64,000 bases of DNA from Margaritifera margaritifera (lineage: Eukaryota; Mollusca; Bivalvia; Unionida; Margaritiferidae), in contig JAQPZY010001549.1 in the NCBI GenBank assembly GCA_029931535.1, positions 2,999,001 to 3,063,000 on the forward strand. Reading direction: 5' to 3'. Positions 6,444-55,960 of the stretch are shown piece by piece. Under the pieces are notes generated by a model. It did no database searches, was not told the origin of the DNA, and was given only the letters and a program-made list of their open reading frames with translations. The translations under genes and the position numbers were made by a program. Every line of letters begins with the position of its first letter. Position 1 is the stretch's first letter.

Positions 6444-6490
6444 GGTACGAAGGTCTCTCTTTATATACTCTCCTCTCTCTATATAAAGAT
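6444..6490. promoter_or_regulatory. Divergent promoter between zinc-knuckle and polymerase genes
   Basis: Two TATA boxes point away from each other. TATATAAAG at ~6480 serves the polymerase gene (ATG at 6531), and its mirror, AGTATATAAAGAGAG on the minus strand near 6460, serves the zinc-knuckle gene (ATG at 6401). The CTCTCTC-rich spacer is shared. The decayed copy keeps a similar 'tatatatagggagaga' tract near 43312. Confidence 0.7.
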
Positions 6491-6530
6491 ACCTGGGTGA
6501 AACTGAATCAGTTTCAAAGTAAACTTCAAG

Positions 6531-9500: not shown

Positions 9501-10289
9501 ATTGTCAAGGAAAACTGATGTTTCCTTTATGTCGGACGTGTGCCGAAACGTGCAACCAAGATCATCCCTGTCACCACACGAAGGAAGAACGGTCTTTGAC
9601 AGGAACGTGGGTGAGCGCCGAATTGTTTAGGGCACTGGATCGTGGATACCCTTTGTTGAAAGTGTACGAAATCTGGCACTTTCCAACTACAGCCCAATAC
9701 CAAAAGGACGACGCCACCAATCATCCAGGCATTTTCTCGGGGTACGTCAATCAGTTTTTAAAACTGAAACAAGACCAAAATCGATTCAAAGAAGAATACC
9801 GTGACATCGAAGGCATCACTTTGGAAGAGGTGGGAAAAAATGAAGGAAAAAGATCGTTTGCCAAAGTGATGCTCAATTGCTTGTGGGGAAAAATGGCCCA
9901 ACGTACGATCTTACCCAAAACGGAATACGTCACCGATCCTTATCGCTACTTTAAACTGGTGGACGACAAAAGTATACTAGTCAAACACGTCGAAATCGTC
10001 CGCGATGATTTGATCTTACTCAATTTCGAAAAAGAACCCAAGTTTGTCAAACCTGACAAACTTTGAGGTTTTAAAAAATGCTTTACTGTCTGGACAAGTG
10101 AAAGACTTTCGAGTACCCACGTTTGAACCTCACAAGATTGTACGACTAAATAATCATCAAATCGTGACTCGACCTGTTCAAAAAGTGTATCGTATTGTGT
10201 ACCAAAAACGAGTGAGACTTCCAGATCACACGACTTTACCTTACGGACACGTCAATTTGGAGGAGTATAAAAAAAGGAAACCCTCTTGA
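6531..10289 (+). pseudogene. polB: Protein-primed family B DNA polymerase (Polinton pPolB), broken
   Basis: Would replicate the element by protein priming. The basic, Pro-rich N-terminus and ~360-residue N-terminal domain run to 7610. A Cys/His-rich zinc region follows (7640-7960), then Exo I (FFDFEC, 8024), Exo II (NFSGYDGQF, 8299), Exo III (YCRSDVDIL, 8674), Pol A (DVCSLYP, ~9360) and Pol B (KVMLNCLWGKM, 9863). Lesions: a TAA at 7611; a 17-nt tandem duplication near 7640; single-base-type frameshifts near 8070 and 8985; a deletion plus frameshift just after Pol A (~9385); and a deletion near 10045 that removes the Pol C (DTDS-type) catalytic motif. The enzyme must be inactive. The C-terminal YKKRK codons double as a TATA box. 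Confidence 0.93.
10266..10275 (+). promoter_or_regulatory. TATA box inside the polymerase 3' end
   Basis: TATAAAAAAA lies in the last codons of the polymerase frame (encoding Tyr-Lys-Lys) and 44 nt before the first BIR ATG. A near-identical GTATAAAAAAAGGAA occurs at 10947 before the third BIR gene. Confidence 0.65.
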
Positions 10290-10309
10290 AGAGACACAAC
10301 ACCAAGAGG

Positions 10310-10582
10310 ATGTCTTCAACATGGGCTTTACCTGACTATTGTGATTGTACCAGTCGATTGAACACGTTTAAAAAATGGCCTTAAGGGGATCGATTACCCA
10401 CTGCCATCTCTTTAGCCAGAGCAGGATTTGTCTACTTTGAACAGGGAAGTTTAGTGAAATGTTTCAGTTGTGGTGCAAGCATTCGCATGAGTCCTAAAGA
10501 TTCAGCTATCGTGGAACATACCAGATGGTCACCAAACTGCGCTTACCTTTCTTTAGCGTTTCCACGGATGACATTACAATAA
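10310..10582 (+). pseudogene. BIR (IAP-like) gene 1, one nonsense codon
   Basis: A 90-codon frame encoding a single BIR domain, interrupted by TAA at codon 25 just after TFKKWP. Beyond the stop the domain is well preserved: LARAGFVYF, then zinc ligands C51, C54, H70 and C77 in CFSCG..HTRWSPNC. Its 3' third is ~95% identical in DNA to BIR gene 2, so the two are tandem duplicates. The leader 'gacacaacaccaagagg' resembles that of gene 2. BIR proteins bind caspases or IAP antagonists in animals. There is no RING domain. Confidence 0.85.
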
Positions 10583-10595
10583 GACAACACCAAAG

Positions 10596-10976
10596 ATGAC
10601 TTCAACATTTGCTTTGCCTGACTATGGTGAGTGTGACAGTCGCTTGAAGACTTTCAAAAATTGGCCTAAGCACATGCCTGACTATTGTTATTGTCCTCAT
10701 CGATGGAGTACAAAAAAACTTAGGAACAATGGATTACCTACTTCCTACGCTTTAGCCAGAGCAGGATTTGTTTACTTTGGACAGGGCACCAAAGTACAGT
10801 GTTTAAGTTGTGGTGTCACTATTCGTATGGATTGTAAGAAATCAGCTCTCCTGGAACATGTCAGATGGTCACCAAACTGTGCTTACCTTTCTTTAGCGTT
10901 TCCACCGATCACATTACAATACTTTTCGGATGGTACAGTCGACAGGTATAAAAAAAGGAACCCCTTCCAAGCCTAG
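10596..10976 (+). CDS. BIR-domain (IAP-like) protein 2
   Basis: A 126-residue protein with one BIR domain. R16 and the TFKNWP motif are near the N-terminus, LARAGFVYF follows, and the zinc ligands are C69, C72, H88 and C95 (CLSCG...EHVRWSPNC). Between the WP and LARAGF motifs it has ~20 extra residues (PDYCYCPHRWS..) that look like a partial repeat of its own N-terminus (PDYGECDSRL), so the fold may be altered. No RING or CARD is present. It starts 13 nt after BIR gene 1 ends. The C-terminal RYKKR codons contain the TATA box for gene 3. Predicted role: modulation of host cell death, by analogy with viral IAPs (inference). Confidence 0.88.
   Translation: MTSTFALPDYGECDSRLKTFKNWPKHMPDYCYCPHRWSTKKLRNNGLPTSYALARAGFVYFGQGTKVQCLSCGVTIRMDCKKSALLEHVRWSPNCAYLSLAFPPITLQYFSDGTVDRYKKRNPFQA
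10947..10956 (+). promoter_or_regulatory. TATA box inside the BIR 2 3' end
   Basis: TATAAAAAAAGGAA overlaps the codons for Tyr-Lys-Lys at the end of BIR 2 and lies 68 nt before the BIR 3 ATG. Confidence 0.65.
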
Positions 10977-11014
10977 CCCTTCATTCTAACTTTCAACGTT
11001 AACCAAGCAAGAAG

Positions 11015-11590
11015 ATGAGTCACGACTTGGAGTGTGATGCAGTACCATGCGATGAAACGGATTCTATATGGTTTGGCATTCCCGATTCACACGTTCAAAC
11101 GGATTCCGTAGCTTGTAACATCTTGGATTCAGGACCCTCTCCGAGTCTCACCACCACCACCACCACTCATCGACAACCCTCTAAAGAGTCAGTACGGCCT
11201 TTTTGCTTCAGTGGAAATACTAAAGGAACTGATATTGACGTTAACGACAACAAGGTCAATGTTGGTCAATATTCGCATGTCAGAATACCTGTGAGTTTAC
11301 CTGGTTATTCCAAGTATGAAAGTCGACTCGAGTCATTCAAAGACAAGTGGCCAAAATTTCTAGAAGGACCTAAACCGGAAGGTTTAGCTAGATCTGGATT
11401 TAAATACACGGGAGATGGAGATAAAGTTCAATGTTTCAGTTGTGGTGTGAAACTTCACCATTGGGAGCCTACCGACTCAGCTTACATTGAACATGCCAGA
11501 TGGTCTCCGCACTGTCACTTCTTACCTTTAGTGGCCTTAGAAGAGTACGGGTACGATGAGCCAGATGCCAAACAAAAGAAGAAGAAGTGA
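11015..11590 (+). CDS. BIR-domain (IAP-like) protein 3
   Basis: A 191-residue protein. The first ~85 residues are acidic and Ser/Thr-rich with a poly-Thr run and no recognised fold. A canonical BIR occupies ~95-170: R104, SFKDKWP, LARSGFKYTGDGDKVQCFSCG with ligands C140, C143, H160 and C167, plus the W150/D154 pair usual in IAP-antagonist-binding grooves. A basic KQKKKK tail follows. No RING is seen, so any effect would be by binding caspases or antagonists rather than by its own ubiquitin-ligase activity. It is more divergent from BIR 1/2 than those are from each other, so it is either an older duplicate or a separate capture. The frame is intact. Confidence 0.92.
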   Translation: MSHDLECDAVPCDETDSIWFGIPDSHVQTDSVACNILDSGPSPSLTTTTTTHRQPSKESVRPFCFSGNTKGTDIDVNDNKVNVGQYSHVRIPVSLPGYSKYESRLESFKDKWPKFLEGPKPEGLARSGFKYTGDGDKVQCFSCGVKLHHWEPTDSAYIEHARWSPHCHFLPLVALEEYGYDEPDAKQKKKK

Positions 11591-11601
11591 AAAAAATTTC
11601 C

Positions 11602-12657
11602 ATGGCGGAGGAGAATACTTCTTTAGAAGAATACATTACTGGTTTACCTTTGGAGTTGCAAGAACATATTTTTCAGTATATTCCTAGCTTAGAAGATTGC
11701 ATTCGTGGTTTACCTTTGGAGCTACGAGAACGGATTTACAAAGAATTTGTTCAGATTCAAGTGAAACGTAAAGAACAGTTACATCCTTTACGACATACAT
11801 GCTGTAACCATTGGTATTTGAAGGCGATAAGACATTTGATTGAGGTCGAGATATTCAAATGGTCAGACATTCATGAAAAACTAGACTTCACCTTTAAAAG
11901 ATTGGAGGGTGCCACCTACAATGTGGCAGTGGAATATAGAATTCGATGGAATGAAGTGAAGGAAAAAAATGTGACTAACAGACAAGAATACCAAAAACTG
12001 TTACAAGAACTGTCCCCTCAAGACGAATTACCTTTACGTCGTTTGAAATTAGATAGGATAATCACTCATCATAATGGATATCCTTTACCTACCGATTCCA
12101 TTTGGTTGGTGTGTGAGTATTTTGTCACCAAGAAGACCACTTTAGAAGACCGCATTCGTGACTTGCCTTTGAAGTTGCGAAAACGGATTTACGATGAGTT
12201 TGTCCAGATTCAAGTGAAACGTAAACTTCAAGTAATTCGTCGATTTCAATACTATGGCTACTTTCGCCGCATCAGAAATCTGATTCTGAACAACAACTAT
12301 CACCAGTATCGTGCAGAATACAAAAGAGAGTTACTTCTTTCCAAATCGGAAACTTTACCCAAGTACATTCGTGGTATGCCTTTGAATGTGCGCGAAAGGA
12401 TTTACCAAGAGTTTGTCAAGATCCAAGTGAAACGTAAACTCAAAGTCATTTCTCGATTTTTACACTATACCCTCTTCCAAGGTCATAGAAGAATGATTAT
12501 GGGAAACGTCTATCGCTGCTACTATCCTGAAGGAGACTGTCTCAAAAGGTACCAACCTTGTAAGCCTGGCTATAAAAACATGCCACCCAAGATACCTACC
12601 TTTGCCATCGACCCCTATAAAGAGGCGGCATGCCTGCGCTCTACACGTCACTCGTGA
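11602..12657 (+). CDS. Repeat protein with F-box-like motifs
   Basis: A 351-residue protein from ATG 11602 (Kozak context ccATGG), 11 nt after BIR 3. It contains one partial and three full copies of a motif of the form I.GLPLELRERIY.EFV.IQVKRK, at about residues 13-24, 33-54, 185-210 and 253-280. LPLELRERIY resembles the first helix of F-box or SOCS-box motifs, which recruit cullin ubiquitin ligases; the resemblance is by eye only. The spacers are helical and rich in basic and aromatic residues. Decayed copies with the same IRVKRK/IQVKRK repeats lie at 46670-47150, so this is a stable Polinton gene. Function unknown; an E3-adaptor role is a guess. Confidence 0.75.
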   Translation: MAEENTSLEEYITGLPLELQEHIFQYIPSLEDCIRGLPLELRERIYKEFVQIQVKRKEQLHPLRHTCCNHWYLKAIRHLIEVEIFKWSDIHEKLDFTFKRLEGATYNVAVEYRIRWNEVKEKNVTNRQEYQKLLQELSPQDELPLRRLKLDRIITHHNGYPLPTDSIWLVCEYFVTKKTTLEDRIRDLPLKLRKRIYDEFVQIQVKRKLQVIRRFQYYGYFRRIRNLILNNNYHQYRAEYKRELLLSKSETLPKYIRGMPLNVRERIYQEFVKIQVKRKLKVISRFLHYTLFQGHRRMIMGNVYRCYYPEGDCLKRYQPCKPGYKNMPPKIPTFAIDPYKEAACLRSTRHS

Positions 12658-12951
12658 AACGGATTCCGTGGAAGGAAATCACAGATCATGTTCAGATCTT
12701 AGAGGATTATAAACAAAGTGATACAAGAATTGTTTCCATTGAATTTTGGACGCTATGTGGTGTGTGTCTTAGTGACTTCTTATCTTGGAATTCGTTTTCC
12801 AGGACATTCGTTGTGGAATATTTTTGAGGACAAGTGTTTACCTTGGATTCTTTTGGAGGACCCGTGGTTGTTTTGGACTCAATTGTTGAGTTCAAAAAAA
12901 CAATATGACCCTGTGTTCTTCTTCGGACTTAGTAGAAGAAGAAGACTATAA
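12630..12951 (+). pseudogene. Small conserved Polinton protein of unknown function, frameshifted
   Basis: Starts at ATG 12630, overlapping the end of the F-box-like gene. Residues IPWKEITDHVQ are followed by a frameshift near 12715, after which the frame reads IQELFPLNFGRYVVCVLV...LWNIFEDK. The decayed relative at 47162-47420 starts at the equivalent ATG and preserves IP.KEV.D.VQ and IQQDDTIPVN, which supports one gene across the frameshift. The hydrophobic stretch YVVCVLVTSYLGI could be a membrane segment. No family is recognised. It overlaps the start of the next gene by ~47 nt. Confidence 0.6.
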
Positions 12952-13543
12952 AAACTTGATTTTATCAGTACACGAAAGACAAATTGTACTTAAAGCGTTG
13001 AGAGTGGTAATGAAAATCAGTGAGGAACCTCCATGTGAAGAAGACATTCGTCACACTTTATCTGTCTATAAAAAATTTCAAGAAGTGTGTATTGCTAGTG
13101 AGTTACACCAACAACTTTTCAACTGGAAAGATGTACGGCCCTGGAGAAACCTTGGTTTCCAATATTGGCTACAAGAAGTGGCTCAGTTTGCAAAGATTTG
13201 GCAACATGTTCATAAGGATCCAAAAGTGAAAAAATGGGAACCTCAATGGGAAATCCTGAAAGAGGAAAAAGAGGACCACACCGTTGTCCAAATACAACCA
13301 CCCCACCCACCCCCACCCCCCGAGGAACACAACCCTTCCTTACCGCCGCCGTCAGAGCATTCAAAAAAACAAAAGACGAGCAGAAGAATACCACACCAAG
13401 CAGTGTCTGTGTCTTTCATTACTAGGACACGAAACTATTGTCGTACATTGACTTGTTTATACGACAGTTTGATTGTTTCAGTGGGAGCCTTAATCGTGTA
13501 CCTGATAATTTTGCTTTGCTATTTTATGACTCGTTGGCTTTAA
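12905..13543 (+). CDS. Proline-rich, C-terminally anchored membrane protein
   Basis: A 212-residue protein. Residues 1-125 are mostly helical and charged. Residues 131-149 are a proline-rich linker (QPPHPPPPPEE, PSLPPPS), a basic stretch follows, and residues ~188-208 form a single hydrophobic segment (VSVGALIVYLIILLCYF) ending in TRWL. This topology fits a tail-anchored or single-pass membrane protein. A decayed homologue at 47470-47680 keeps VCIAS.LHQQ.F.WKDVR.W. No known family. Being next to the virion genes, it may be a virion or assembly membrane protein (inference). The frame is intact. Confidence 0.75.
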   Translation: MTLCSSSDLVEEEDYKNLILSVHERQIVLKALRVVMKISEEPPCEEDIRHTLSVYKKFQEVCIASELHQQLFNWKDVRPWRNLGFQYWLQEVAQFAKIWQHVHKDPKVKKWEPQWEILKEEKEDHTVVQIQPPHPPPPPEEHNPSLPPPSEHSKKQKTSRRIPHQAVSVSFITRTRNYCRTLTCLYDSLIVSVGALIVYLIILLCYFMTRWL

Positions 13544-13624
13544 TGACTTGTAAAAAAATGTTTTTGTTTGTTGTGTTGGTTTGTTCTTTAAAAAAAAAAA
13601 AAATAAATAAACGTGTATGAAACG
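13544..13624 (+). promoter_or_regulatory. Likely polyadenylation region and spacer before the ATPase gene
   Basis: Contains an A-run followed by AATAAATAAA at ~13601-13610, a plausible poly(A) signal for the upstream gene. Confidence 0.45.
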
Positions 13625-13631
13625 TATAAAA
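13625..13631 (+). promoter_or_regulatory. TATA box of the ATPase gene
   Basis: TATAAAA, 54 nt before the chosen ATG. The same 'acgtgtat..aaa..ata' and 'atgtcttg' context is kept before the decayed copy near 44325. Confidence 0.7.
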
Positions 13632-13678
13632 TGTCTTGGGTTTTTTGTCTTCTTCTCAAAAATCTTCCTACCTCAGTC

Positions 13679-14422
13679 ATGGCTACATCTTCTTCTTCTT
13701 CTGCCTCGTCTACCTCCTCGTCTTCTGTGGTTAAAGTGATTGACGAAAAGTTAGATCGTCAAAGTTGGAATGCTTTGTATCTGCGCCATCCATTTAACAT
13801 GTTGATTGCTGGACCGAGTGGTTCAGGGAAAACCGAATTTGTCAAACGTTTGATCGAACAAAAAGCTGATTTGTTTGATCATCCACCTCAACGTATCGTG
13901 TGGTGTTACAAAGAGTGGCAACCGTCTTACACGTTATTGAAAGAAAGTCAAGGAGAAACCATTTCGTTTGTGGATGGTATTCCTCACGAAGACGATGGAA
14001 TCGTGTCTGACGTGAGTCAAACCCATTTGGTTATTTTTGATGACATGTTAGGAGAAGACGAAGAAGAAATTAAACTTTGGTTTACACGAAAAGGACACCA
14101 TCGTAATGCTAGTATTGCCTACATTACTCAAAATTTATTTCAACAAAGTAAAGCCCATCGGACCATTAGTCTGAACGCCCATTACTTGGTCTTATTTAAA
14201 AGCCCCAGAGACAAATCTCAAGTACAAGTGTTAGCCAAACAGTTAGGGGCTCCTTGGCTCAATTATGCGTATGATGATGCCACTCAAACCCCTCACGAGT
14301 ATTTACTCATTGACTTAAAACCCACCACTCCTGACTATTTGAGATTTCGTGCCCAATTGTTTCACCCTTGGGGTCAAGAAGGTGGTCCTGTCATTTACAC
14401 GTCCCCTTCAACCCATTTTTAA
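13679..14422 (+). CDS. atp: Genome-packaging ATPase (A32/FtsK-HerA type)
   Basis: A 247-residue protein from ATG 13679 (context gtcATGG; upstream in-frame ATGs lie at or before the TATA box). A Ser-rich N-terminus is followed by a P-loop NTPase: Walker A GPSGSGKT at 45-52, Walker B HLVIFDDML at ~116-124, and a YITQN sensor region at ~148-152, then FKSPRDKSQ. This is the Polinton/poxvirus A32-like packaging ATPase, which drives DNA into capsids. Length and motifs look complete and the frame is intact, unlike most core genes here. Confidence 0.94.
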   Translation: MATSSSSSASSTSSSSVVKVIDEKLDRQSWNALYLRHPFNMLIAGPSGSGKTEFVKRLIEQKADLFDHPPQRIVWCYKEWQPSYTLLKESQGETISFVDGIPHEDDGIVSDVSQTHLVIFDDMLGEDEEEIKLWFTRKGHHRNASIAYITQNLFQQSKAHRTISLNAHYLVLFKSPRDKSQVQVLAKQLGAPWLNYAYDDATQTPHEYLLIDLKPTTPDYLRFRAQLFHPWGQEGGPVIYTSPSTHF

Positions 14423-14473
14423 AAAACTATAGAAACAACCTACTACGTCATTTCTGTCTCACAGTCTTTCGAG

Positions 14474-14974
14474 ATGACTTCCTTTCAACCTCATCCTTCG
14501 GCTAAATTGATTCGTGCCTTGTATGGCATCAGTCGTGAAAAAAAATGCACAAGTCCGTGCTCATTTATTAGAAGCGAGTCTTAAAGAAGTGTTATGATGG
14601 TTTACTTTGACGGCACGTCAATTACTGCAAGGCATCATTCACATCCCTCATCAAACTCAACGTTTTTTTTTCAAAAACGTAAAGGAGCATTGTCACAACT
14701 AGCTGATCCTAGAATCGATTCACGGACTAAAAAACAAATCATTTTAACCCCTGGTGGAAGTGGTTCTTTAGCAGGGGTCATGATTCGTTCCCTTTTGAAA
14801 TGGGATCCTAATGCCCAAACCAAAAAATCCAAAAAAAACTCCAAAAAAGAAGAAAAGTCCAAAGAAGAAAACCACCACCACCAAGAAAAAGAAGAAGAAA
14901 GGCAGCCCCCAGAAAAAGAAAAGTCGTGCCAAGAAGAAGAAAACAACACCTACCACAACTACCACCCGCCGTAA
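14474..14974 (+). pseudogene. Polinton core protein, first of two related copies, broken
   Basis: ATG 14474 opens a frame (MTSFQPHPSAKLIRALYGIS) that stops after ~36 codons. Matching pieces continue in other frames past an in-frame TGA near 14595 and a T-run near 14664, to KRKGALSQLADPRI...ILTPGGSGSLAGVMIRSLLKW. The layout (N-terminal helical block, 'KR' block, Gly-rich membrane-like end) parallels the intact 15493 gene, so the two are probably diverged paralogues. The last part overlaps the Lys-rich gene starting at 14811. At least three lesions are present. I infer a virion core role from the family; the biochemical function is unknown. Confidence 0.6.
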
Positions 14975-15434
14975 GAGAGGTACTGCAGCCAGGACGCAAA
15001 CGTACACCCGCAAAACACCACCACCCTTACCATCACCACCACAACAGTCCCCAATGATGATGACGAGGTCTCCTTTTGCGTCCACTTCATCCTCTTTGTC
15101 TTCTTCTTCTTCACCACCCTTTACGATGATGCCTGTCGAACCAGACTTAAGATCCGTGTTTCCTAATTTGATGCAAAAATGGAAATCTATTTCAAAAGTC
15201 ACCCCGTCGGGACCCTCGACTTCAGCTGATTTGGCCATGGCAGCAGCCGCGAACAAAGTACCGTCCCCTAAAACCAAAGTCCAAGAAAGAACTGGCGTGT
15301 TACAAAGTTTAGTGGATTTATCCAAAGAAGAATTGAGACGATTTAGTCCTTTGAAAACACCTCATCGTCGAGTGAGGCCTGTCATGAAGATGGTACGTCG
15401 TGCAGACAATCAGTGGAGACGTGTTCCAGTATAA
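14811..15434 (+). CDS. Lysine-rich, DNA-condensing-like protein
   Basis: A 207-residue protein. Residues ~1-55 are almost entirely Lys/Arg/Thr/Pro (runs such as KKKKSPKKKTTTTKKKKKK), like histone H1 tails or viral core proteins. A Ser/Pro-rich linker follows, then a C-terminal part with LRSVFPNLMQKW, LVDLSKEELRRFSP and a basic RRVRPVMKMVRR end. Likely binds and condenses element DNA in particles (inference from composition). The ATG at 14811 lies inside the preceding broken gene. The stop codon TAA is itself part of the TATA box (TATAAAATAG) for the next gene. Confidence 0.65.
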   Translation: MPKPKNPKKTPKKKKSPKKKTTTTKKKKKKGSPQKKKSRAKKKKTTPTTTTTRRKRGTAARTQTYTRKTPPPLPSPPQQSPMMMTRSPFASTSSSLSSSSSPPFTMMPVEPDLRSVFPNLMQKWKSISKVTPSGPSTSADLAMAAAANKVPSPKTKVQERTGVLQSLVDLSKEELRRFSPLKTPHRRVRPVMKMVRRADNQWRRVPV

Positions 15435-15439
15435 AATAG
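15430..15439 (+). promoter_or_regulatory. TATA box overlapping a stop codon
   Basis: TATAAAATAG spans the TAA stop of the Lys-rich gene and lies 63 nt before the ATG at 15493. Confidence 0.65.
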
Positions 15440-15492
15440 AAGGGTACCCTGCCAGAGACTTCAGACTTGTTTTTTCTACCCTACTAAAAAAG

Positions 15493-15921
15493 ATGACTCC
15501 TAAACGTATTCACCACCACCACCAAAAAAAGAAGAAAAGTAAAACCACCAAAAAAGGACGACTTCCACCTCGTCTGGCCAAACATTGGGATGTCTTGTCT
15601 GTCCTGACCAAATCCAATCCTCCCATGCGAAAACAACTCATTCAAACAGCCCCTAAAGAAATCATCGATACCGTGTGTGAATGTTGTTTGAACGTATTGA
15701 AAGGAACGGTACCTTTGTCCAAGATACAGAAACGAAAATTAGGGAAACATCGGAACGTTCTTCGTCAAATGGTGAAAAAGAAAATACCTCTTCAACAAAA
15801 GAAAAAAATGTTGGCACAACGAGGAGGATTTCTACCTATGTTGATAGGACCATCGTTAAAAATAGCAGCTCCTTTGTTAGGAACAATTGCTGGACCGCTT
15901 TTAGGAGGTGTCATGCGATAA
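15493..15921 (+). CDS. Polinton core protein with GGFLP C-terminus (pX/mu-like)
   Basis: A 142-residue protein. A His/Lys-rich N-terminus is followed by a helical domain (KQLIQTAPKEIIDTVCECC, LNVLKGTVPLSKIQKRKL), then RGGFLPMLIGPSLKIAAPLLGT and a Gly/Leu-rich hydrophobic end. This small protein is conserved across Polintons. The C-terminal RGGFLP-plus-hydrophobic segment recalls the precursor of adenovirus core protein X (mu); that comparison is by pattern only. Likely a minor virion core protein processed or bound in the capsid. The frame is intact. Confidence 0.75.
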   Translation: MTPKRIHHHHQKKKKSKTTKKGRLPPRLAKHWDVLSVLTKSNPPMRKQLIQTAPKEIIDTVCECCLNVLKGTVPLSKIQKRKLGKHRNVLRQMVKKKIPLQQKKKMLAQRGGFLPMLIGPSLKIAAPLLGTIAGPLLGGVMR

Positions 15922-15994
15922 CCAAAAAAAAAAGAAGATAAAAAGGACCACCCTTCTCTGAAAAGACCACACCTTTTTGGTACCTTTGGATGAA

Positions 15995-16596
15995 ATGGAA
16001 GGAAGAAAACTGACTTTAGTACCTTACAAACGATGGATGGAATTTCATCGTTGGAACGAACAACGGATACCTCATTTACCACCCAATCCTAATCTCAACG
16101 AGATGTCCCAGTTACAACAAGAATTACAATCCCTGATGGAACAAAACAATGTGTCAGAAACAGAAAAATCGCAACGGTACGGTCAACTTTTACAACGTCT
16201 ACAACTCTTTCGTCAAAAAGCAGTCGACGAAACAGCTCCACCCACTCTAAGAGATTTCAAAGCCCTGATGAAAAGCGAACCTAAAGTGGCTACCACTAAA
16301 ACAGACACCGGCACAGGAATGACCGTAAAAGAAGAAAAAGAAGAAGAAGAAGAATTACCTACTCTTAAAAAGAAAAAAAAGTTAGCCACACCCAGTTGGA
16401 TAAAAAAGATGTTGTCCACCCATTACCCTCAGAAAAGAAAAAGAAAGAAGTGAAGTCAGAAGTCAAAACAGAACCGATGACCCCTGTTCAATCCACATCC
16501 ACCTCCTTTACACCAGTGGCACGTCGGACACGTAAACAATCCAAAAAGATACCTCACGAAGAAAAGAGCATTGGGACTTGGTTGACTTATTCTTGA
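15995..16596 (+). CDS. Conserved Polinton minor protein (LVPY type), possible frameshift near the end
   Basis: Starts at ATG 15995 (aaATGG). The N-terminal LTLVPYKRWMEF motif, a helical middle and an acidic-then-Lys-rich region are typical of a small conserved Polinton protein of unknown function. The first frame stops at 16453 after KRKRKK. An overlapping frame continues to 16596 with protein-like sequence (KTEPMTPVQST..FTPVARRTRK). The A-rich run at 16433-16450 is a plausible frameshift site, so the true product may reach 16596. Upstream in-frame codons before 15995 lack an ATG. Confidence 0.6.
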
Positions 16597-16604
16597 GGGA
16601 AATC

Positions 16605-17724
16605 ATGGAGAAACTTTTAGCTAGCCTTTATTACAATCCTGGCCATGCTGCTGGTTACGGAGGAGTTCAAAAATTATATCGAGCTGCTAAAAGTAAATTG
16701 AAAATTGTACGTTTGCCCGAAGTACGACGATGGTTACAAGAACAATCGACGTACACGTTACACAAACCCATTCGACGTAAATTTTCTAGAAGTACCACTC
16801 AAGTGGAAGGCATCGATCATCAATGGCAAGCCGATTTAGCTGACGTCTCTCATTTGGCCACTTACAATCGTGGTCACAAATATTTGTTTTGTGTCATCGA
16901 CGTGTTTTCCAAATTTGCTTGGGTCGTGCCTTTGACCTCTAAAAGCAGTACCGAATTGGTAAGGGCCTTAAAATTGGTCTTGAAACAAAGTGGACGCCAA
17001 CCTTTACGATGGCAAACTGACAAAGGCACCGAATTTCTAAACCAAGCTTTTCAAAAAGAATTGAAACAAAGACAAATTCATTTTTTTACTACCGAAAATC
17101 CTGAAACCAAAGCCAGTATCGTGGAAAGTTTTCAAAGAACTTTGAAAGAACGCATGTGGAAATATTTTACACATCAACATACTCTCAAGTACATCGACGT
17201 GTTACCTCGTTTGGTCAAAGCGTACAATCAATCGTACCATCGTAGCATCGGATGTACCCGCGAAGAGGTCAGCCCTGAAAACGAAGTGACCGTGTTTGAT
17301 AAATTGTTTGGTTCACCCCAGAAAAAAAAAGAAGAAGAATACACCCTTGTTGGAGTTAAAGACAGGAGATTGGGTCCGCATCGGAAAAACCAAACGCACT
17401 TTTGACAAAGGTTATTTACCCAACTGGACCACCGAATTGTTTCGTGTCACTACCCCCGTGCGTGGACGTGATCCTCCCGTCTATAAATTGGAAGACATGC
17501 ACGGTGAAGTACTCAAAGGAACATTTTACGTGCCTGAGTTACAACGAGTGACTAAAAAAGAAGACACCTTGTACGACATCGAATGCATTCTCGAACAAAG
17601 AACACGGAAAGTAGGCAAACGTAGAGTAGAAGAAGTCAAAGTACGTTGGAAAGGATATCCTCCTAGTTTTGATTCTTGGATTGCTGCTTCTCAAGTCGTC
17701 GACTATAAAAGGAGAAAGAAGTAA
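16605..17724 (+). pseudogene. int: Retroviral-type integrase with chromodomain, one frameshift
   Basis: Would insert the element and create the 6-bp duplication. From ATG 16605: an N-terminal helical region (YYNPGHAAGYGGVQKLYRA), then the RNase H-fold catalytic core with D77 (WQADLAD), D139 (QTDKGTEF) and E174 (VESFQRTLKE), with 34 residues between the last two by my count. A frameshift at the A9 run (17322-17330) separates the core from an SH3-like module (GDWVRIGKTKRTFDKGYLPNW..F) and a C-terminal chromodomain (YDIECIL..KVRWKGYP..DSWI, ~17570-17720). Chromodomains steer integration to modified histones. The lesion could be a homopolymer sequencing error. The final DYKRRKK codons hold the next TATA box. 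Confidence 0.93.
17704..17712 (+). promoter_or_regulatory. TATA box inside the integrase 3' end
   Basis: TATAAAAGG encodes Tyr-Lys-Arg at the integrase C-terminus and lies 30 nt before the next ATG. A start site ~25-30 nt downstream would give an almost leaderless mRNA. Confidence 0.6.
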
Positions 17725-17733
17725 CTCAACAAC

Positions 17734-18174
17734 ATGCCATTCAACACAGCAACCACCACGACTTCAACGACTCCTTCACAGAGTTCTTCTCTTCAAGAAT
17801 TACAAAAACAACCGCTTTGGGTGTGGTGCGGAGAACGTGTGCCTAAAAATCAAATCGTCTTTTTCTGCCAAATTTTTGTAGTGTATTGTGTCATCGGAGC
17901 AGCTATTGCCAATTTGAGTTTGCAACAAGGGGACAAACAATTGTGGACCATTTTACTTAGCAGTTGCATCGGTTATCTTTTACCCAGTCCCTCTTTGAAA
18001 TTTACGACGACGACGGACAACAGTCACCACCACGGGAGTACGAGCAACGCCAGTCCACCTTCTTCTTCGTCCAGTCACCACCACAATACCAGTCCTCTTT
18101 TGGAACCTTTTAAACATCATTCTTCTGTTCACTTGAGTGACTCCTCGGACACCAGAACCACTTTGGAACTATGA
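17734..18174 (+). CDS. Conserved Polinton two-span membrane protein
   Basis: A 146-residue protein. A Thr/Ser-rich N-terminus and WVWCGERVPKNQ lead into two hydrophobic segments, ~41-62 (IVFFCQIFVVYCVIGAAIAN) and ~70-87 (LWTILLSSCIGYLLPSP). A low-complexity His/Ser-rich tail follows. The VPK.QIVFF...LSSCIGYLLP pattern is a recurrent small Polinton protein of unknown function. The tail is longer than the core needs. Its last codon overlaps the ATG of the capsid gene (ATGA overlap). Confidence 0.8.
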   Translation: MPFNTATTTTSTTPSQSSSLQELQKQPLWVWCGERVPKNQIVFFCQIFVVYCVIGAAIANLSLQQGDKQLWTILLSSCIGYLLPSPSLKFTTTTDNSHHHGSTSNASPPSSSSSHHHNTSPLLEPFKHHSSVHLSDSSDTRTTLEL

Positions 18175-19178
18175 ATGACCAATTTTATTTAACGTTACCT
18201 AGTGACAGTTCCATGGATGTGTTTCCCAACAACACCTTATGTTGTTTCACGGCCAAATTACCTCAATCCATTCAATTGGATCACGATGCTCATTGGGAAG
18301 TCAGTTTGGTAGAAATCATTCATCCTACGCAAATCATGAACATCAACAAAGGTCAAAACACTATCATTGTGGAAATCTTGAACAAAAAAGTACAAGATGA
18401 CTCGGAAAAAAATGATCCTAAAATCTGGGAAGGAGACAATAATAATCATAACATGAAGGGATCATTCAAAAAGGTCTCAGATGAAAAAGAAAAGGTCTTA
18501 GGGCAGTATACCCTGAGAATTCCTACGGGGTATTATTTTAGTTCTGGACATTTGGTGGACACTATTGAGTCCATCCTTGACAACCAATTTGGCAAAGCCT
18601 TAACTTGTAACAACAAAATTGTACGTGTCAGTTTCAATAATGTGGCACGCCGTTTCAACATTCAATTTTATATGATAGACCCAGAGAGTGGTGATGTCGT
18701 CAGCGACAAAACTGCTAAAGAAAAAGGTATACCCGAGCAGGAGAGAAGATTCATGACCATTGAATTTTCTCCTGGGTTGTATGCTATTTTGGGTGGAAAC
18801 AAAGAGTATACCAATCGAAAAGTTTCAACCAACATAGAATTCGCAGATGCTTTTCGTACCCCTATCGAAGTGAACATTGGACTGAATTTAATGTTTGTGT
18901 ACTCCGATGTGGTGGAGTACAACGTGGTGGGCCACACAGCTGCTCCCTTACTAAGAGTCATTCCTTTCAAAGTGGATACTGCTGCTGGTGCGTACGAAGA
19001 AGGTGGAAACACGTTTCACGTTCACCGTGAATTTGTACACCTTCATTATCTTCCAGTCAGTAAATCGTATTTTGACAGTGTCAACATTAGTATAAAAGGA
19101 GATTTATGACAAAGTGTACCATTCATTGACAAAGGAAAAGTCACGGTGAAACTACATTTTCGAAAAAAGGTTCTCTAA
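18171..19178 (+). pseudogene. px: Minor capsid (penton-like) protein, premature TGA near the end
   Basis: Starts FYLTLPSDSSMDVFPNNT, followed by FTAKLPQSIQL and WEVSLVEIIHP, the typical start of the Polinton minor capsid protein (single jelly-roll, penton-like). The body continues with IRIPTGYY-like, FNIQFY and FRTPIEVNIGLN.MFVYSD blocks. A TGA at 19107-19109 is followed in the same frame by 22 further codons including GKVTVKLHFR, a C-terminal motif expected in the family, before TAA at 19176. The stop is therefore a recent lesion that removes only the tail. I assign 'minor capsid' from pattern memory of the family, not from structure. Confidence 0.72.
19091..19099 (+). promoter_or_regulatory. 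TATA box inside the minor capsid gene 3' end
   Basis: TATAAAAGG, 112 nt before the next ATG at 19203, within codons for Ile-Lys-Gly. Confidence 0.45.
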
Positions 19179-19202
19179 CGTCTTGTAACATCCCAAAAAA
19201 AA

Positions 19203-19646
19203 ATGTATCCAGTGTACCGAGGAGTGGCTCGACAACGAGGACATGGTTTAGCAGATATGTTAAGATCAGCTTTTCGGACGGTAGCTCCTATTTTGAAACC
19301 GATGGTGAGTCGAGGATTTCATGCCTTAAAAGATGCCGCTTTGACACAAGGAAAAGAATTTTTGCAAAACGTCCTTATCGACAAACAAAATCCTAAAGAA
19401 GCCTTTATGAGAGCAGGCAAAAATGTGTTGATGAACACTGGTAAAGATCTTTTAGGTCTCCGAGAAAATCCTATAAATACGCTTCACGCTTCAGGCTCTG
19501 GCATTACTTCGTAGCAAGGACAAGGCAGAAAGAGACGACGACAACATCGAAATCCTTTCAAAGTTCATAAAAGAACACACGGCAGTTCCAAAAAGAATAA
19601 GAAAAGAAAAAGAACCATCAGAGAATTAGACGTGTTTGATTATTAA
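19203..19646 (+). pseudogene. Small basic virion-type protein, nonsense-interrupted
   Basis: Starts MYPVYRGVARQRGHGLADML, with an amphipathic helical region (FRTVAPILKPMVSRGFHALKD) and a GSG hinge. A TAG at 19512-19514 interrupts the frame, which then continues for 43 codons (GRKRRR, KKNKKRKR) and ends LDVFDY at 19646. The full layout (VY.G..RQRGHG start, helix, basic C-terminus ending D.F) matches a small conserved Polinton protein always found next to the major capsid gene and recalling adenovirus membrane-lytic or cementing minor proteins. That analogy is an inference. Confidence 0.7.
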
Positions 19647-19656
19647 ACCATTGAAA

Positions 19657-21023
19657 ATGATGCACCGAGATTCTTGCGAATGTACCAAGTCAGAACTGGA
19701 TATGTTTACCATGCCTCCCACCATGATGACGATGCAAGAATCCCAATGGGTGGAATTTCATCCTGTATCGTCTTTGTCGGATTCAGCTCCTATCGAATTT
19801 GAAATCAAAGGACAAACCGAAGATTACATCGATCTGAATGACAGCTACTTGTACCTGAAACTCAAAGTGATCAAAACGGCGGACAGCAGCCTTCCTGATG
19901 GCGATTCCAGAGTAGCTCCCGTCAATAATTTCATGAATTCCTTGTTCAGTTGGAATAGATTTGTACTTGAATAACAAACTGGTCAGCAGCAGTTTGGATA
20001 CTTACCCTTACCGTGCTTACTTGGAAAATCTCTTGACGTATGGAAAAGAAGCCAAGAACACTCATCTGGATGCTTCAGTGGTCTGGAAACCGGACACTCC
20101 GACATTGTTCGACAACACACAGGTGTCAGAACCGGCGAGGATTGAGGGTATTGATTTTGATCATGCAAGAATAACTCCAGCAGAGCCGCACAATGTGGGA
20201 TTTAACGACCGTCGAAAGAAAATCAGAGGGCACAGTTTAGAACTGATGGATCGTTTGCATTTGGACATGTGGTTGCAAGACAAGTATTTGTTGAACGGAG
20301 TAGATGTACGCCTGAGACTGAATCGCTGTAGTACCGCTTTCCATTTGATGGCTTTTGCTAACGAGTGGAAAACTGTCATCCAAGAAGCCAAACTTTACGT
20401 GCGACGTGTAGAAGTCTTACCAAAAGTAGCCAACGACATCAGTCAAACCTTGAGCAGAACCACTGCTAAGTATCCTCTTAGACGTGTGGAAGTGAAAACC
20501 TTTACTGTGGCCGCTGTACTCCGATCCATAGTCGAAGATCACGTCTTCCAAGGACAGCTCCCCAAACGCTTGCTGATTGGTATGGTCAGAAATTCAGCCT
20601 TCAACGGAGTTCACGATCAGAATCCGTTCCTGTTTCAGCACTTTAACGTCTCCAAGATAGAAGTCAGTCGAGATGGCAAGACCTTGTGTACCAGACCTTT
20701 TTGAACCTGACTTTGGCGCCAACGTAAAAAATTACCTACGATCTTACTTGACCCTGTATGAAGCCACAGGACAGTTAGGCACCAACACCAGCCACGGCAT
20801 TTCGTACGACGATTATGCAGGAGGGTATGCCTTGTGGGGATTTGATTTCACTCCGGACCAAGGCAGCGATGAAGGACATTTCCACCCTATAAAATCAGGC
20901 CCCCTTCGAGTGGAACTTCAGTTTACAGCTCCTCTAGCCGAGACAGTGAACGTCGTCTTGTTTGCAGAATTTGATAATACTCTAGAGATCAACAGTTTGA
21001 GAGAAGTAATTCTAGACTATTAG
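19657..21023 (+). pseudogene. py: Major capsid protein (double jelly-roll), two frameshifts
   Basis: Three overlapping frames join into one major capsid protein of the Polinton/adenovirus double jelly-roll type. The N-terminal part (VEFHPVSSLSDSAPIEFEIKG, YIDLNDSYLYLKL) shifts frame near 19955, after VNNFMNSLFS. The central part (LYLNNKLVSSS, GFNDRRKKI, LHLDMWLQDKYLLNGVDVRLRL) runs to 20690. A T-run at ~20697 shifts to the C-terminal part (FEPDFGANVKNYLRSY, GYALWGFDF, SGPLRVELQF, EFDNTLEIN). All expected blocks are present and in order, so only small indels separate the frames. Start chosen at ATG 19657. Confidence 0.92.
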
Positions 21024-21039
21024 CAGAAAAGAAAACAAG

Positions 21040-21570
21040 ATGCAGCACGAAGAAGAACTTATGGAGATAGATGAGGGGTTTTGTGAAGTGATTCAACAGT
21101 CACAAACTACCACAAAGGATTATGATGATGATGACGAAGTCATTCGTTCAGAACCTAAAAAAGAAGAAAACAATTCAGTTCCTGTGTTTACTGGATTTAT
21201 GGCTTGTCGATGGCCAGAACAGGAAAAACAGTTAGTGTCTTGTTATGCTCAGGAATTGACTGAAAGAATTAACAGTCTGATTAAAGAACAATGTTATGGA
21301 TGTCAAAACGATCATCCCAGTCAGATACAACACGACCAATGTATGATGTTGACAGGTGAAGAAAAATTGGATAACTATTTGGAAACGGCCTGGTCACAAA
21401 TCTCAGATGAACACGTGTTGAAACAGTGGTATAAAGTCTTGCAGAATTCTTCTTTTCCTACACTTACTCTTCTGGAGATCAGACGTATCGAAGGACTCAT
21501 TGAACAGAGTGCAGAGCCTATCCGACGTGAATATTCATGGAGTTACAAAGACAGATCAATTCAAGCATAA
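21040..21570 (+). CDS. Conserved Polinton CYGC..H zinc-binding protein
   Basis: A 176-residue protein. An acidic, disordered N-terminus (DYDDDDEV) precedes a compact domain with C85, C88, H92, H98 and C101 (CYGCQNDHPSQIQHDQC), a probable zinc site. A helical C-terminal part (LDNYLETAWSQ, LLEIRRIEGLIEQ) follows. The CxGC..DHPSQ..H..C signature recurs in Polintons, but I know no function for it. It sits between the capsid and protease genes, and the frame is intact. Confidence 0.8.
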   Translation: MQHEEELMEIDEGFCEVIQQSQTTTKDYDDDDEVIRSEPKKEENNSVPVFTGFMACRWPEQEKQLVSCYAQELTERINSLIKEQCYGCQNDHPSQIQHDQCMMLTGEEKLDNYLETAWSQISDEHVLKQWYKVLQNSSFPTLTLLEIRRIEGLIEQSAEPIRREYSWSYKDRSIQA

Positions 21571-21638
21571 AGTCAGGTGTGAATTGGTGATCTATTTTTT
21601 CCATTGAAGACAAAAAAAAAAGAAGAAGAAAGAAAAAA

Positions 21639-22181
21639 ATGGATACTAGAGAACTTTATTACCTATTGACTCGTAGTTCCTATACTTCTTCTTGGAATCC
21701 TGTGGTATGTGCTAAAGATGAACTACCTCATCGTAAACCGAAAAACGTTCATGCCTATATCATCAATACCGACGACAGTCATATACCAGGAACCCATTGG
21801 GTTGCCGTGAACTTTCCCAACGCTCACTGTGTGGAATATTTTGATTCTTATGGATTACCTCCTTTGGAAGACGACATCATCGACTTTATGAGAAGAAATG
21901 CCGTCTCGACTCAATTCAATAATGTTCGATTACAAGGATCGGATTCCATGGTGCGTGGACAATATTGTGTACATTTTCTTTATCACCGCAGTCTTGGATA
22001 TTCCTTAGAACATTTACTGACTTGGTTTAATAGTGACTATGCTAGAAATGATGCTAAAGTACAACAATGGTTTTGTGAACATTATGGTTATCTCTTGTCT
22101 TTAGCTCACAAGCGTCATGTCAATCAGAATGATGTCGATGTAGAAAGGTGGAGGTTTAGTTTACCACCCCAACGTTGTTAA
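21639..22181 (+). CDS. pro: Adenovirus-type cysteine protease, catalytic Cys replaced
   Basis: A 180-residue open frame with the adenain-like (C5-type) layout. The catalytic His is H53 (GTHWVAVNF), the acidic partner lies in VEYFDSYG (E66/D69), and the oxyanion Gln is Q99 (LQGSDS). The active-site motif should read CGQYC. Here residue 106 is Arg (codon CGT at 21954-21956), giving RGQYC, so the nucleophile is missing; the Cys at 110 is the second, non-catalytic one. The frame is otherwise complete, but the protein should be unable to cleave virion precursors. Confidence 0.88.
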   Translation: MDTRELYYLLTRSSYTSSWNPVVCAKDELPHRKPKNVHAYIINTDDSHIPGTHWVAVNFPNAHCVEYFDSYGLPPLEDDIIDFMRRNAVSTQFNNVRLQGSDSMVRGQYCVHFLYHRSLGYSLEHLLTWFNSDYARNDAKVQQWFCEHYGYLLSLAHKRHVNQNDVDVERWRFSLPPQRC

Positions 22182-22422
22182 CCTTGTAAATATGTTCCTG
22201 TTTTAAAAAAATTTCTTGTTGAATTGTTAGTATTTTTATGTTAGAATGATTATTGTTGATTAATAAAAATGGTTATTGTTGAAAAAAATGGTGTTGTGTG
22301 GTTTTTTTATTGAATTTTTAAAAAAAATAATTATGTTCTCTCTCTTTCTATCGATCTAAAAAAACTATCCTCTTTTTCCTCTATCTGTGATCTCACTGTC
22401 GATCTGAAAAAAAACCCTACCA
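22182..22422. other. AT-rich spacer with probable poly(A) signal
   Basis: Contains GATTAATAAAAATGG near 22257, a plausible poly(A) signal for the protease gene, and T/A-rich runs. No gene is seen. Confidence 0.45.
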
Positions 22423-22470
22423 TGTTTTCCATCGCGTCCGCGCGTTAAGCATATAAAGCGGTGCGTTGGC
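22423..22470 (+). promoter_or_regulatory. End-gene promoter cassette 1
   Basis: TGTTTTCCATCGCGTCCGC, then exactly 29 nt from its first base to TATAAAG (22452-22458), followed by CGGTGC. An almost identical cassette with the same 29-nt spacing precedes the 23516 gene. No other gene in the element has this upstream box. Confidence 0.75.
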
Positions 22471-22526
22471 CAGTGTAGTCATTCTCGTTGACTCGTCAAG
22501 ATCTCAATAGTTCCAAGAAGAAGAAG

Positions 22527-22943
22527 ATGGCAGCCACCAAGATTACAAAGCTGAATGAAGCTATGGTTAACATTCAGAGGGTGAAGAATCATTTGATGGA
22601 GACCAACCCAGAGAGAAAGACGATGACGTTCATTCAAATGGCACATGATCTAGTAGAAGAGGTCATGAGAGAAGAAATACTTCGGGAAAGAACAGAATGG
22701 GAGGCGACACAACGACTACAGCAGCAGCAGCAGCAAAGACAACAACAGCAGCAACAGCAACAACAACTTATGCAGTCCAACAAACTACCTGACGGCGAAG
22801 TAACTTGCAAGATTGACTGTGAAGAATTTGCTTTCTCTTTCACCCGAAAGAGACCTGCCTGTCTTAAAGCTGTGAGACCCATCGCTAAACGTGGCCGCCC
22901 TGCTGGAGCTACTGCCACGGCTACATCAACCCTAAGAAGTTAA
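22527..22943 (+). CDS. Poly-Gln, AT-hook-bearing small protein
   Basis: A 138-residue protein from ATG 22527 (aagATGG), 75 nt after the TATA box. A helical N-terminus (1-60; NIQRVKNHLMETNPERKTM) is followed by a poly-Gln tract (~64-80), a short Cys/acidic segment, and a basic C-terminus with KRGRPAG at 121-127, which matches the AT-hook core (RGRP) that binds AT-rich minor grooves. Likely a DNA- or chromatin-binding protein (inference). It shares its promoter cassette with the 23516 gene and ends in a histone-type stem-loop 29 nt after the stop. No family is recognised. The ATG is preferred over an upstream non-ATG frame because it follows the TATA box. Confidence 0.72.
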   Translation: MAATKITKLNEAMVNIQRVKNHLMETNPERKTMTFIQMAHDLVEEVMREEILRERTEWEATQRLQQQQQQRQQQQQQQQQLMQSNKLPDGEVTCKIDCEEFAFSFTRKRPACLKAVRPIAKRGRPAGATATATSTLRS

Positions 22944-22972
22944 AACAACAACATAACTTCTTAAAACCCAAC

Positions 22973-23010
22973 GGTCCTTTTAAGGGACACCCCAGTCTCT
23001 AGAAAAAGAT
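22973..23010 (+). terminator. Histone-type stem-loop and purine element after the AT-hook gene
   Basis: CCCAAC, then GGTCCTTTTAAGGGAC (stem with one G-A mismatch and one wobble, loop TTTA), then ACACCCC, then CTAGAAAAAGA 13-15 nt downstream. The order and spacing match a metazoan histone stem-loop plus downstream purine element. Confidence 0.72.
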
Positions 23011-23434
23011 TACTACTCTCAAATTGCCATATATAATGTGTTTTATATGTTTGTATGTTTTTGTGATAGTTGACCAAACAAAAAAAACCTTTTCCCTTTG
23101 TGTATTTGTGGAGTGTGTAAAATATATAAAAAAAAATTTAAAAAAAGGGTTGTGTGGTGTGTGAAAGTTTGATATAAAAAAATATAAAAAATAAATTGTA
23201 TGTGTGTTGAGTGTGCTTGGTTTATAAAAAAAAAAATTTAAACAAATTTTGGTTGGTATGGTGTGTGTTGTATATAAAAAAAATTTAAATCAAAAAGTAG
23301 TTTTGTTTAGGTCCGCGCTTTTTTAGAGTCAGGGGTGAGAGAGTACAAACAAAATCCGCGAAGCTTAAAATACGTCAGACGCTAGGCGGGGTAGTTGGTT
23401 TTTTAATTTTTTTTTGGTTTTTAGGTGTAAGGGA
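23011..23434. other. AT-rich repeated region between the two end genes
   Basis: No open frame of note. Four loose units of the form 'TGTGTxxG...TATAAAAAAAAATTTAAA' occur near 23106, 23160, 23212 and 23262, followed by a GC-rich stretch with 'gtccgcgc', 'tccgcgaagc' and 'gctaggcgggg'. It could be an enhancer, an origin-like region or a binding ground for the AT-hook protein, but nothing proves any of these. Confidence 0.4.
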
Positions 23435-23475
23435 TGTTTTCCTTCACGTCCGCACTTCTCACATATAAAGCAGTG
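23435..23475 (+). promoter_or_regulatory. End-gene promoter cassette 2
   Basis: TGTTTTCCTTCACGTCCGC and, 29 nt from its first base, TATAAAG (23464-23470) followed by CAGTGC. It matches cassette 1 at 22423 in sequence and spacing. The ATG follows 52 nt after TATA. Confidence 0.75.
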
Positions 23476-23515
23476 CCTTCCACAGTTGCGCTATTCACAC
23501 TTTCACTCTACAAGA

Positions 23516-24106
23516 ATGAACTCTGTTGAAATGTTACAAGAAGCTTGGGATAGAATGGTGGATGTGGAGTCTTTGATGGAAAGGTTGGAGTATTGGTGGA
23601 GATATCCTACCACCAAACCATTTGTCACCAGCCAACTAGCGGCTCTCAAATCAGCCAGAAGGTTGGTGAATGATGTTTTGGTCGAGGAAAGACAAAAATC
23701 TTCCTCAACCCCTTGCCGTGTGGGGTTCATCAAGAAGAGTCTGGATTTACTGCATGAGGTGGAGTACTTCCTTCACCTTGTTCAACAAGATGAATGGTTG
23801 TATCCACCCGCCAGTAACGCCAGGCGCGAAGAGGTGAACCTTCACATGGTGAAGGCATTGTTAAAGAAAGTTTTAGAGAAGGAAGTAGCCCACATTAAAA
23901 TCTTGTGGGCTCTTGAACGATCCAAGAAAGAACAGGCCAGAAAAGAAAAGGAATTCGAACGCCTGAATTTAAATTGGATGAAAATCCAAGATAAATTCCG
24001 GCGGATGAAACATCCTGACTGGCTACCTGATTCACCAACACTTCCAACCAAGAAAAAAAGATCCACTCCCTTCCTAAGCTTCTTCACCCAATGTTGGAGG
24101 AAATAA
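23516..24106 (+). CDS. Helical end-gene protein of unknown function
   Basis: A 196-residue protein from ATG 23516, chosen because upstream codons lie within the promoter. It is almost entirely helical and charged, with Trp-rich segments (MERLEYWWRYP, VQQDEWLYPP), a long Lys/Glu-rich helix (LERSKKEQARKEKEFERLNLNW) and a basic KKKRS patch near the C-terminus. No family or catalytic motif is recognised. The last gene before the right TIR, it ends in the best histone-type 3' end of the window, 18 nt after its stop. It shares its promoter with the AT-hook gene, so the two are probably expressed together. Confidence 0.72.
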   Translation: MNSVEMLQEAWDRMVDVESLMERLEYWWRYPTTKPFVTSQLAALKSARRLVNDVLVEERQKSSSTPCRVGFIKKSLDLLHEVEYFLHLVQQDEWLYPPASNARREEVNLHMVKALLKKVLEKEVAHIKILWALERSKKEQARKEKEFERLNLNWMKIQDKFRRMKHPDWLPDSPTLPTKKKRSTPFLSFFTQCWRK

Positions 24107-24118
24107 TAATCTTCCTCC

Positions 24119-24416
24119 TCCAACGGTCCTTTTGAGGACCACCCCTTTTTCAAGAAAGATTAATTCTATTCCCACACCCCCGTATGTACTGACCCCCGCT
24201 ATGATCCATTCCCGTAGAGTACCCAGAGAGACCCCAATGTTAAATTCCCATAGAGTACCCAGAGAGGCCCCACAATGTTAATTTCCCGTAGAGTACCCAG
24301 AGAGGCCCCACAATGTTAATTTCCGGTAGAGTACCCAGAGTGCCCCCGCAACGTTAAATCCCATAGAGTACCCAGAGAGGCCCCCAGTACCCAGTTACCC
24401 CCCCCCCTCAACTACT
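24119..24416. repeat. Right terminal inverted repeat of Polinton
   Basis: Reverse complement of 4910-5204. It begins inside the 3' UTR of the 23516 gene, so the gene's histone-type terminator is part of the TIR. It contains ~38-bp direct units around 'gtagagtacccagagaggcc' and ends CCTCAACTACT. Confidence 0.95.
24125..24159 (+). terminator. Canonical histone-type 3' end after the 23516 gene
   Basis: CCAAC, GGTCCT-TTTG-AGGACC (perfect 6-bp stem, 4-nt loop, 24125-24140), ACCCC, then CAAGAAAGA at 24151-24159, 10 nt after the stem. In animal histone genes the stem-loop binds SLBP and the purine element pairs with U7 snRNA. CAAGAAAGA is the sea-urchin form of that element. Confidence 0.85.
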
Positions 24417-55957: not shown

Positions 55958-55960
55958 TTC

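Follow-up and report, generated by a model that had tools for sequence, protein, structure and literature searches.

Histone-type 3' ends and promoter elements on small non-histone genes of a Polinton family in Margaritifera margaritifera

The window analysed here is a stretch of 64,000 nucleotides of the Margaritifera margaritifera genome (assembly GCA_029931535.1, contig JAQPZY010001549.1, positions 2,999,001 to 3,063,000), and the coordinates below count from its first base. It contains a Polinton, which shares with Polinton/Maverick elements the DNA polymerase B (PolB) pieces, the rve integrase, the A32-type ATPase, the terminal inverted repeats and the 6-bp target-site duplication. The three enzymes are recognized by their Pfam domains, although those of PolB and the integrase seem to lie in interrupted or truncated ORFs. 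Candidate ORFs for the jelly-roll capsid proteins and the cysteine protease have no Pfam match; the ORF at 21639-22181 may encode an adenain-type protease. Each terminal repeat carries a tandem array with a 38-bp unit and 4.7 copies (4939-5114 and 24209-24384). The element differs from known Polintons in several small end-proximal genes with histone-type 3' ends and promoters, and in two ORFs, at 10596-11590, in which Pfam also recognizes BIR (inhibitor of apoptosis) domains. The element and its small genes are arranged as follows:

4904-4909 and 24417-24422: 6-bp target-site duplication CAAGTA
4910..24416, plus strand: Polinton, 19,507 bp, with AG...CT ends
5263..5616, plus strand: ORF of 117 aa, corresponding to the C-terminal portion of a gene that has 195 aa in relatives
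22527..22943, plus strand: ORF of 138 aa
23516..24106, plus strand: ORF of 196 aa

None of the three proteins has a Pfam match, a histone domain included. The 22527-22943 ORF contains the motif KRGRPAGA, which we take to resemble an AT-hook. The 5263 ORF lacks the N-terminal part of the 195-aa gene, and at 5266-5231 on the minus strand, just upstream of the minus-strand stem-loop listed below, lies a 12-residue remnant similar to the tail of a fourth small gene of the family (E 0.014), a likeness that can be taken only as a hint. A deletion or a repeat exchange has probably produced the left end of this copy.

The strongest signal is found 3' of the 23516 gene and is mirrored at the other end of the element:

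24125..24140, plus strand: histone-type stem-loop GGTCCTTTTGAGGACC, six pairs, loop TTTG, 3' of gene 23516-24106
24151..24159, plus strand: purine element CAAGAAAGA, with 10 nt between stem and element
5183..5198, minus strand: the terminal stem-loop, mirrored within the left inverted repeat

The initial annotation had described the first site as a six-pair stem with a 4-nt loop, followed by ACC and, 10 nt on, by a purine element, and the sequence reads exactly so, with ACC directly 3' of the stem-loop. The Rfam model RF00032, which was built independently of the window, matches 24120-24165 on the plus strand with 35.6 bits (E 1.2e-6), above its gathering score of 34 bits. An equal score is obtained at 5158-5203 on the minus strand, because the terminal inverted repeat includes the stem-loop at its inner border. 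The likeness to the replication-dependent histone mRNA 3' end includes the six-pair stem, the four-base loop, the flanks and the purine spacing; the difference is that the signal stands here on non-histone genes of a mobile element, where its processing is a prediction. The initial annotation took CAAGAAAGA for the sea-urchin form of the purine element; the present host is a mollusc, and the literature search showed this string in no paper. A 9-bp inverted repeat (GTTGGAGGA / TCCTCCAAC, 24093-24124) spans the 23516 stop codon, abuts the stem-loop and includes its AAC flank, and is similar in other copies (L134 and neighbours); either competition with the histone stem-loop or support for it is conceivable.

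Four further sites in the window had been reported as related signals or relics:

5691..5706, plus strand: degenerate stem-loop, 4/6 pairs, after 5263-5616; no RF00032 match
5718-5725: purine core AGAAAAGA of the 5691 site
22973..22988, plus strand: weaker stem-loop, 5/6 pairs, after 22527-22943; RF00032 19.9 bits, below gathering
23001-23009: purine core AGAAAAAGA of the 22973 site
41912-42530: decayed 5263-type gene upstream of the 42561 stem-loop
42561..42576, plus strand: decayed stem-loop, 4/6 pairs; RF00032 19.1 bits, below gathering
45801-45851: 17-residue gene remnant upstream of the 45873 stem-loop, a weak match (E 0.03)
45873..45888, plus strand: decayed stem-loop, 5/6 pairs; RF00032 16.3 bits, below gathering

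All four exist, but they are weaker than the terminal site, with only four or five of the six pairs, and the AAC said to precede every stem is ATT at 45873. The placement of relics after homologous genes holds for 42561, since the gene at 41912-42530, though decayed, is homologous to the full-length 5263-type gene (E 1.5e-21), but for 45873 it depends on a remnant of just 17 residues. A scan for the layout, designed after the sites were already known, returned 6 window sites with at least four pairs and ACC, while 200 dinucleotide shuffles gave 17 in total; once a purine element was required as well, the figures were 5 and 1. A chance origin of the signals was rejected on the basis of the RF00032 score and the shuffle scan. 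The window scans gave no signal after any other gene of this Polinton, and those genes presumably use ordinary 3' ends. The remains of a second, decayed Polinton at 43078-44241 match the 6531-7613 ORF at 45%.

In histone pre-mRNAs the SLBP protein binds the stem-loop while the purine element is bound by the U7 snRNP, and cleavage takes place with no addition of poly(A). This scheme is stated in parts by passages of three papers (PMC9756948; PMC5636114; PMC12775136). The same stem-loop and purine layout is described for cnidarian histone genes in a passage of PMC5011920, and clam histone mRNAs are given stem-loops, with purine elements for only some genes, in part of PMC6210712. In the present host, for whose H1 the named relatives among the matches listed are nearly all molluscan, H4 is repeated in tandem with a unit of about 8 kb, and a cluster stretch (L117) holds H2B, H2A, an H1-like gene and H3. 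Six H4 ends and L117 together contain ten sites that RF00032 matches with 25.9-38.0 bits, eight of which reach the gathering score, and the 35.6 bits at 24120-24165 fall within this range. A host histone 3' end reads, for example, GGCCCTTTTTAGGGCC-ACACAAACCTCT-AGAGAAGA; the purine elements of the host's own histone genes are AGAGAAGA, CGAAAAGA, AGAAAAGA or TGAAAAGA, and their core, read by eye, stands 12-13 nt after the stem. A TTGCC-like stretch occurs 3' of the purine element in the host histone genes (L111-L117) and in many element genes, the 22973 and 5691 sites of the window being examples. The SLBP domain (PF15247) is encoded in the host by two stretches of contig C413 (64.3 and 38.8 bits); a search of the host genome for U7 snRNA gave no match, but neither did its positive controls.

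The signal extends well beyond the window. The host genome (2.45 Gb) contains many relatives of this Polinton: relatives of the 23516 protein with 91-100% identity are found in at least 150 places (the best 150 of 4,259 first-look candidates), and the protein of a divergent relative, L008, has at least 150 matches at 55% or more (the best 150 of 4,812). Across the family, four small gene types carry the histone-type 3' signal. In the collected loci and the window, the 5'-arm motif follows 65/68 genes of the 23516 type (61 with six pairs, 4 with five), 10/10 of the 22527 type (8 with six, 2 with five) and 18/19 of the 5263 type (15 with six pairs, one with five, one with four and one spurious pick), at median distances from the aligned coding end to the stem of 19, 32 and 77 nt, respectively. 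The fourth gene (87-92 aa; L008, L045) adjoins a 23516-type or 22527-type gene in relatives and is likewise followed by stem-loops. In the 23516-, 5263- and 22527-type genes the purine core AGAAAAGA most often stands 12 nt after the stem (36/65, 15/18 and 9/10, with longer A runs counted in the last), and the core AAGAAAGA at 11 nt (21/65).

A scan of the host's Polintons with RF00032 had been proposed as a check. Genome-wide, all 75 matches that were scored, out of 508,685 first-look candidates, pass the gathering cut-off (34.7-45.8 bits), and none of these 75 adjoins a core histone gene. They fall into 73 loci, 72 of which match an element gene when matches to the stem-loop read as peptide are excluded; the remaining locus, L069, resembles the others only around the stem-loop. 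The 75 are a sample and no census, as the host histone genes and the two matches of the window are not among them. A histone gene misread as a Polinton gene was rejected as an explanation, as 0/73 loci match H2A, H2B, H3 or H4.

Retention of the stem was assessed in gene ends picked by protein similarity alone. Three sets were used: the 30 best matches of the 23516 protein, the window copy among them (set 1, L014-L043); 40 of the other 120 matches of this protein, chosen for variety (set 2, L118-L157); and 40 of the 150 matches of the L008 protein (set 3, L158-L197), where the protein match stops before the stem-loop, which was located via its flanks and purine element, with pairing not used. 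A recognizable stem-loop is present in 110/110 of these ends and all six pairs in 103/110. Sets 1 and 2 have six pairs in 67/70 (66 by strict count plus the six-paired L023, hidden from that count by a flank change), with five pairs in L027 and L028 and four in L043; set 3 has six pairs in 36/40, five in 3 and four in 1. Among the 70 close copies, diversity is 0-6% in the stem columns and 0-3% in the purine core; of the four loop columns, three have 29-66% and one has 0, the base immediately 5' of the stem has 49%, and the columns past the purine element and its TTAA mostly have 39-74%. Codon positions 1, 2 and 3 show 2.6, 1.0 and 4.9%, respectively, in 27 copies of equal length. Twelve close copies (L134-L137, L140-L142, L144, L145, L147, L149 and L151) have CATC or CCTC loops on intact stems; such loops, without the leading T, may weaken SLBP binding.

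The stem pairs also change together. When 32 different stem-loops drawn from several gene types are compared, pairing holds in 91.1% of cells, against 89.2% in shuffles (reached by 18/500), and two-sided changes occupy 11 cells against 0.9 (reached by 2/500); sliding the partner by one column lowers pairing to 52.6-55.2%. The third pair is U-A, C-G and U-G in 12, 10 and 10 variants, respectively. The gene tree shows 3 changes of the third pair and 12 of the fourth, whose states include U-G and an unpaired C-A. Many of the loci behind both the tree and the 32-stem test were obtained via RF00032, which favours paired stems, and a smaller shuffle of the nine distinct stems of set 3 showed no covariation (5.44 against 5.32 pairs). 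Compensatory changes, which the initial annotation had proposed to look for, are present in the larger test; the smaller one shows none. That annotation had named stems left unconserved in related elements as the result that would speak against it; with six pairs in 103/110 ends and covariation besides, the relatives have kept them.

The resemblance to histone genes is also found upstream of two of the genes in the window:

22425..22443, plus strand: promoter element TTTTCCATCGCGTCCGCGC before the 22527 gene
22452-22457: TATAAA before the 22527 gene
23437..23455, plus strand: 19-bp promoter element TTTTCCTTCACGTCCGCAC, common to host H2B and H1
23464-23469: TATAAA before the 23516 gene

In the host cluster, TTTTCCATCACGTCCGCGC stands before H2B and TTTTCAATCACGTCCGCGC before H1. 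The pattern TTTTCNNTCNCGTCCGCRC was written from these host elements and those of the 22527 and 23516 genes, and was compared across the window, L117 and the collected relatives. With up to 2 mismatches it matches the window twice, before 22527 and 23516, where 0.02 matches are expected; with up to 3 mismatches it matches L117 four times (0.06 expected), namely exactly at H2B and H1, once on the minus strand before H2A and once, with 3 mismatches, before the next H4. No match precedes H3 in L117. Within 220 nt of the ATG the element is found in 65/73 genes of the 23516 type (30/31 in the protein-selected loci) and in 12/13 of the 22527 type, its first base lying 61-111 nt upstream of the ATG, and a TATA within 100 nt accompanies 63/73 and 12/13, respectively. 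The fourth small gene has the element in 11/11 cases. Full-length 5263-type genes have it in 0/39; the five upstream regions of this type that were inspected contain CCAAT, TATA-like and mostly TGACGTCA sequences instead.

Taken together, these observations make it probable that a set of small genes near the ends of the Polintons of this family, none of them coding for histones, is expressed in the manner of replication-dependent histone genes. The reading that the element uses the 3'-end machinery of the host, put forward by the initial annotation, is supported at the level of sequence by the six pairs in 103/110 ends and the covariation; the host histone genes share the stem-loop and the purine element at the same spacing, and the promoter element common to host H2B and H1 adds further support. 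In the proposed mechanism, host SLBP would bind the stem-loop of the element genes and U7 snRNP the purine element, CPSF73 would cleave between the two, and the resulting mRNA, lacking poly(A), would be made and kept mainly in S phase. The arrangement suggests that the element times its signal-bearing genes to the phase in which the host copies its DNA. It is likely, with less assurance than for the use of the signals as such, that the whole histone gene format, promoter and 3' end, has been taken over for several unrelated element genes and has wired their expression to S phase. Counting against expression in the manner of histone genes are the loop variants, the missing promoter element in 39/39 genes of the 5263 type, the AATAAA past 22527, the nine-stem test, the U7 search in which neither U7 nor a control gave a match, and the failure to find the signal in short Polinton-like contigs of other organisms.

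Among the other explanations, use of the signals for germ-line or early-embryo expression, rather than for S phase as such, is possible and deserves some weight, though we hold it to be the lesser prospect. A transposon needs to multiply in the germ line, and oocytes keep histone mRNA according to a passage of PMC12803260. The promoter element, however, is common to the H2B and H1 genes of the cluster, and nothing in the sequence separates germ-line from S-phase use; both may hold. Dual 3' ends, either cut at the stem or polyadenylated downstream, would tie the genes only partly to S phase, which appears unlikely. This option draws on the AATAAA 246 nt past the 22527 stop (one of 6/23 ORFs with AATAAA or ATTAAA within 400 nt past the stop) and on the dual ends of the human H2AC18 gene mentioned in part of PMC9756948, but neither hexamer occurs within 400 nt past the 5263 and 23516 stops. 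It is very improbable that the element captured the flanks of a host histone gene, and that the signals are now unused relics spread by duplication of gene ends: the promoter element and 3' end are both host-like and the 3' flanks can be aligned between gene types, but the stem and purine core vary much less than the loop and downstream bases, the stem changes covary, and the dead copies of the window have lost pairs. A role of the hairpin at the DNA level, for example when the element is replicated, packaged or integrated by way of its terminal repeats, fits its place at the inner edge of the inverted repeat and can nevertheless hardly be maintained, as stem-loops also follow internal genes on the coding strand, with the flanks and purine element of the RNA signal and a fit to the RNA model RF00032.

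Transcript ends marked by hairpins are also known from giant viruses, in which a hairpin after the stop codon marks poly(A) addition. The hairpins of the Polinton likewise follow stop codons, but they correspond to the histone element of animals and not to a poly(A) mark. The histone 3' end is treated as the mark of one gene family. If expression through the histone pathway is borne out, this pathway can serve non-histone genes as well, and the copies offer many natural variants for testing the requirements of SLBP and U7; it also suggests how a Polinton could match the expression of its genes to host DNA replication. In such genomes, scans that rely on RF00032 to detect histone genes may pick up mobile elements in their place.

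Outside the host, the viral contigs searched gave 0 matches to the histone pattern and 5 to a looser one; RF00032 matched none of the latter at E values up to 1. The promoter pattern has 3 matches in them, two of which were inspected and neither of which is promoter-like, and integrase searches of the same contigs confirmed no relative. The 23516 protein has no match in a set of 5.8 billion proteins. A search of genome contigs returned thirteen loci, eleven of them (L198-L208) on contigs of metagenome-assembled genomes (MAGs). On these short contigs RF00032 has no match at gathering (L198-L208, L211 and L212), and the layout scan (L198-L208 and L211-L213) gave one chance-like site. No report of a histone 3'-end signal in a mobile element appears among the titles and abstract openings of the openly licensed papers found. 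Polintons and histone 3' ends are each known, and within the literature searched their union, to which a histone-type promoter element is joined, is new.

Two minor observations concern other mobile elements. The Polinton-type integrases of L198-L208 lie on contigs assigned to MAGs of bacteria (Ignavibacteria, Nomurabacteria, Limnohabitans and Poribacteria), which are probably eukaryotic contamination. In the window itself, retrotransposon ORFs for reverse transcriptase, RNase H and integrase extend over 51884-63813, apparently as two related copies.
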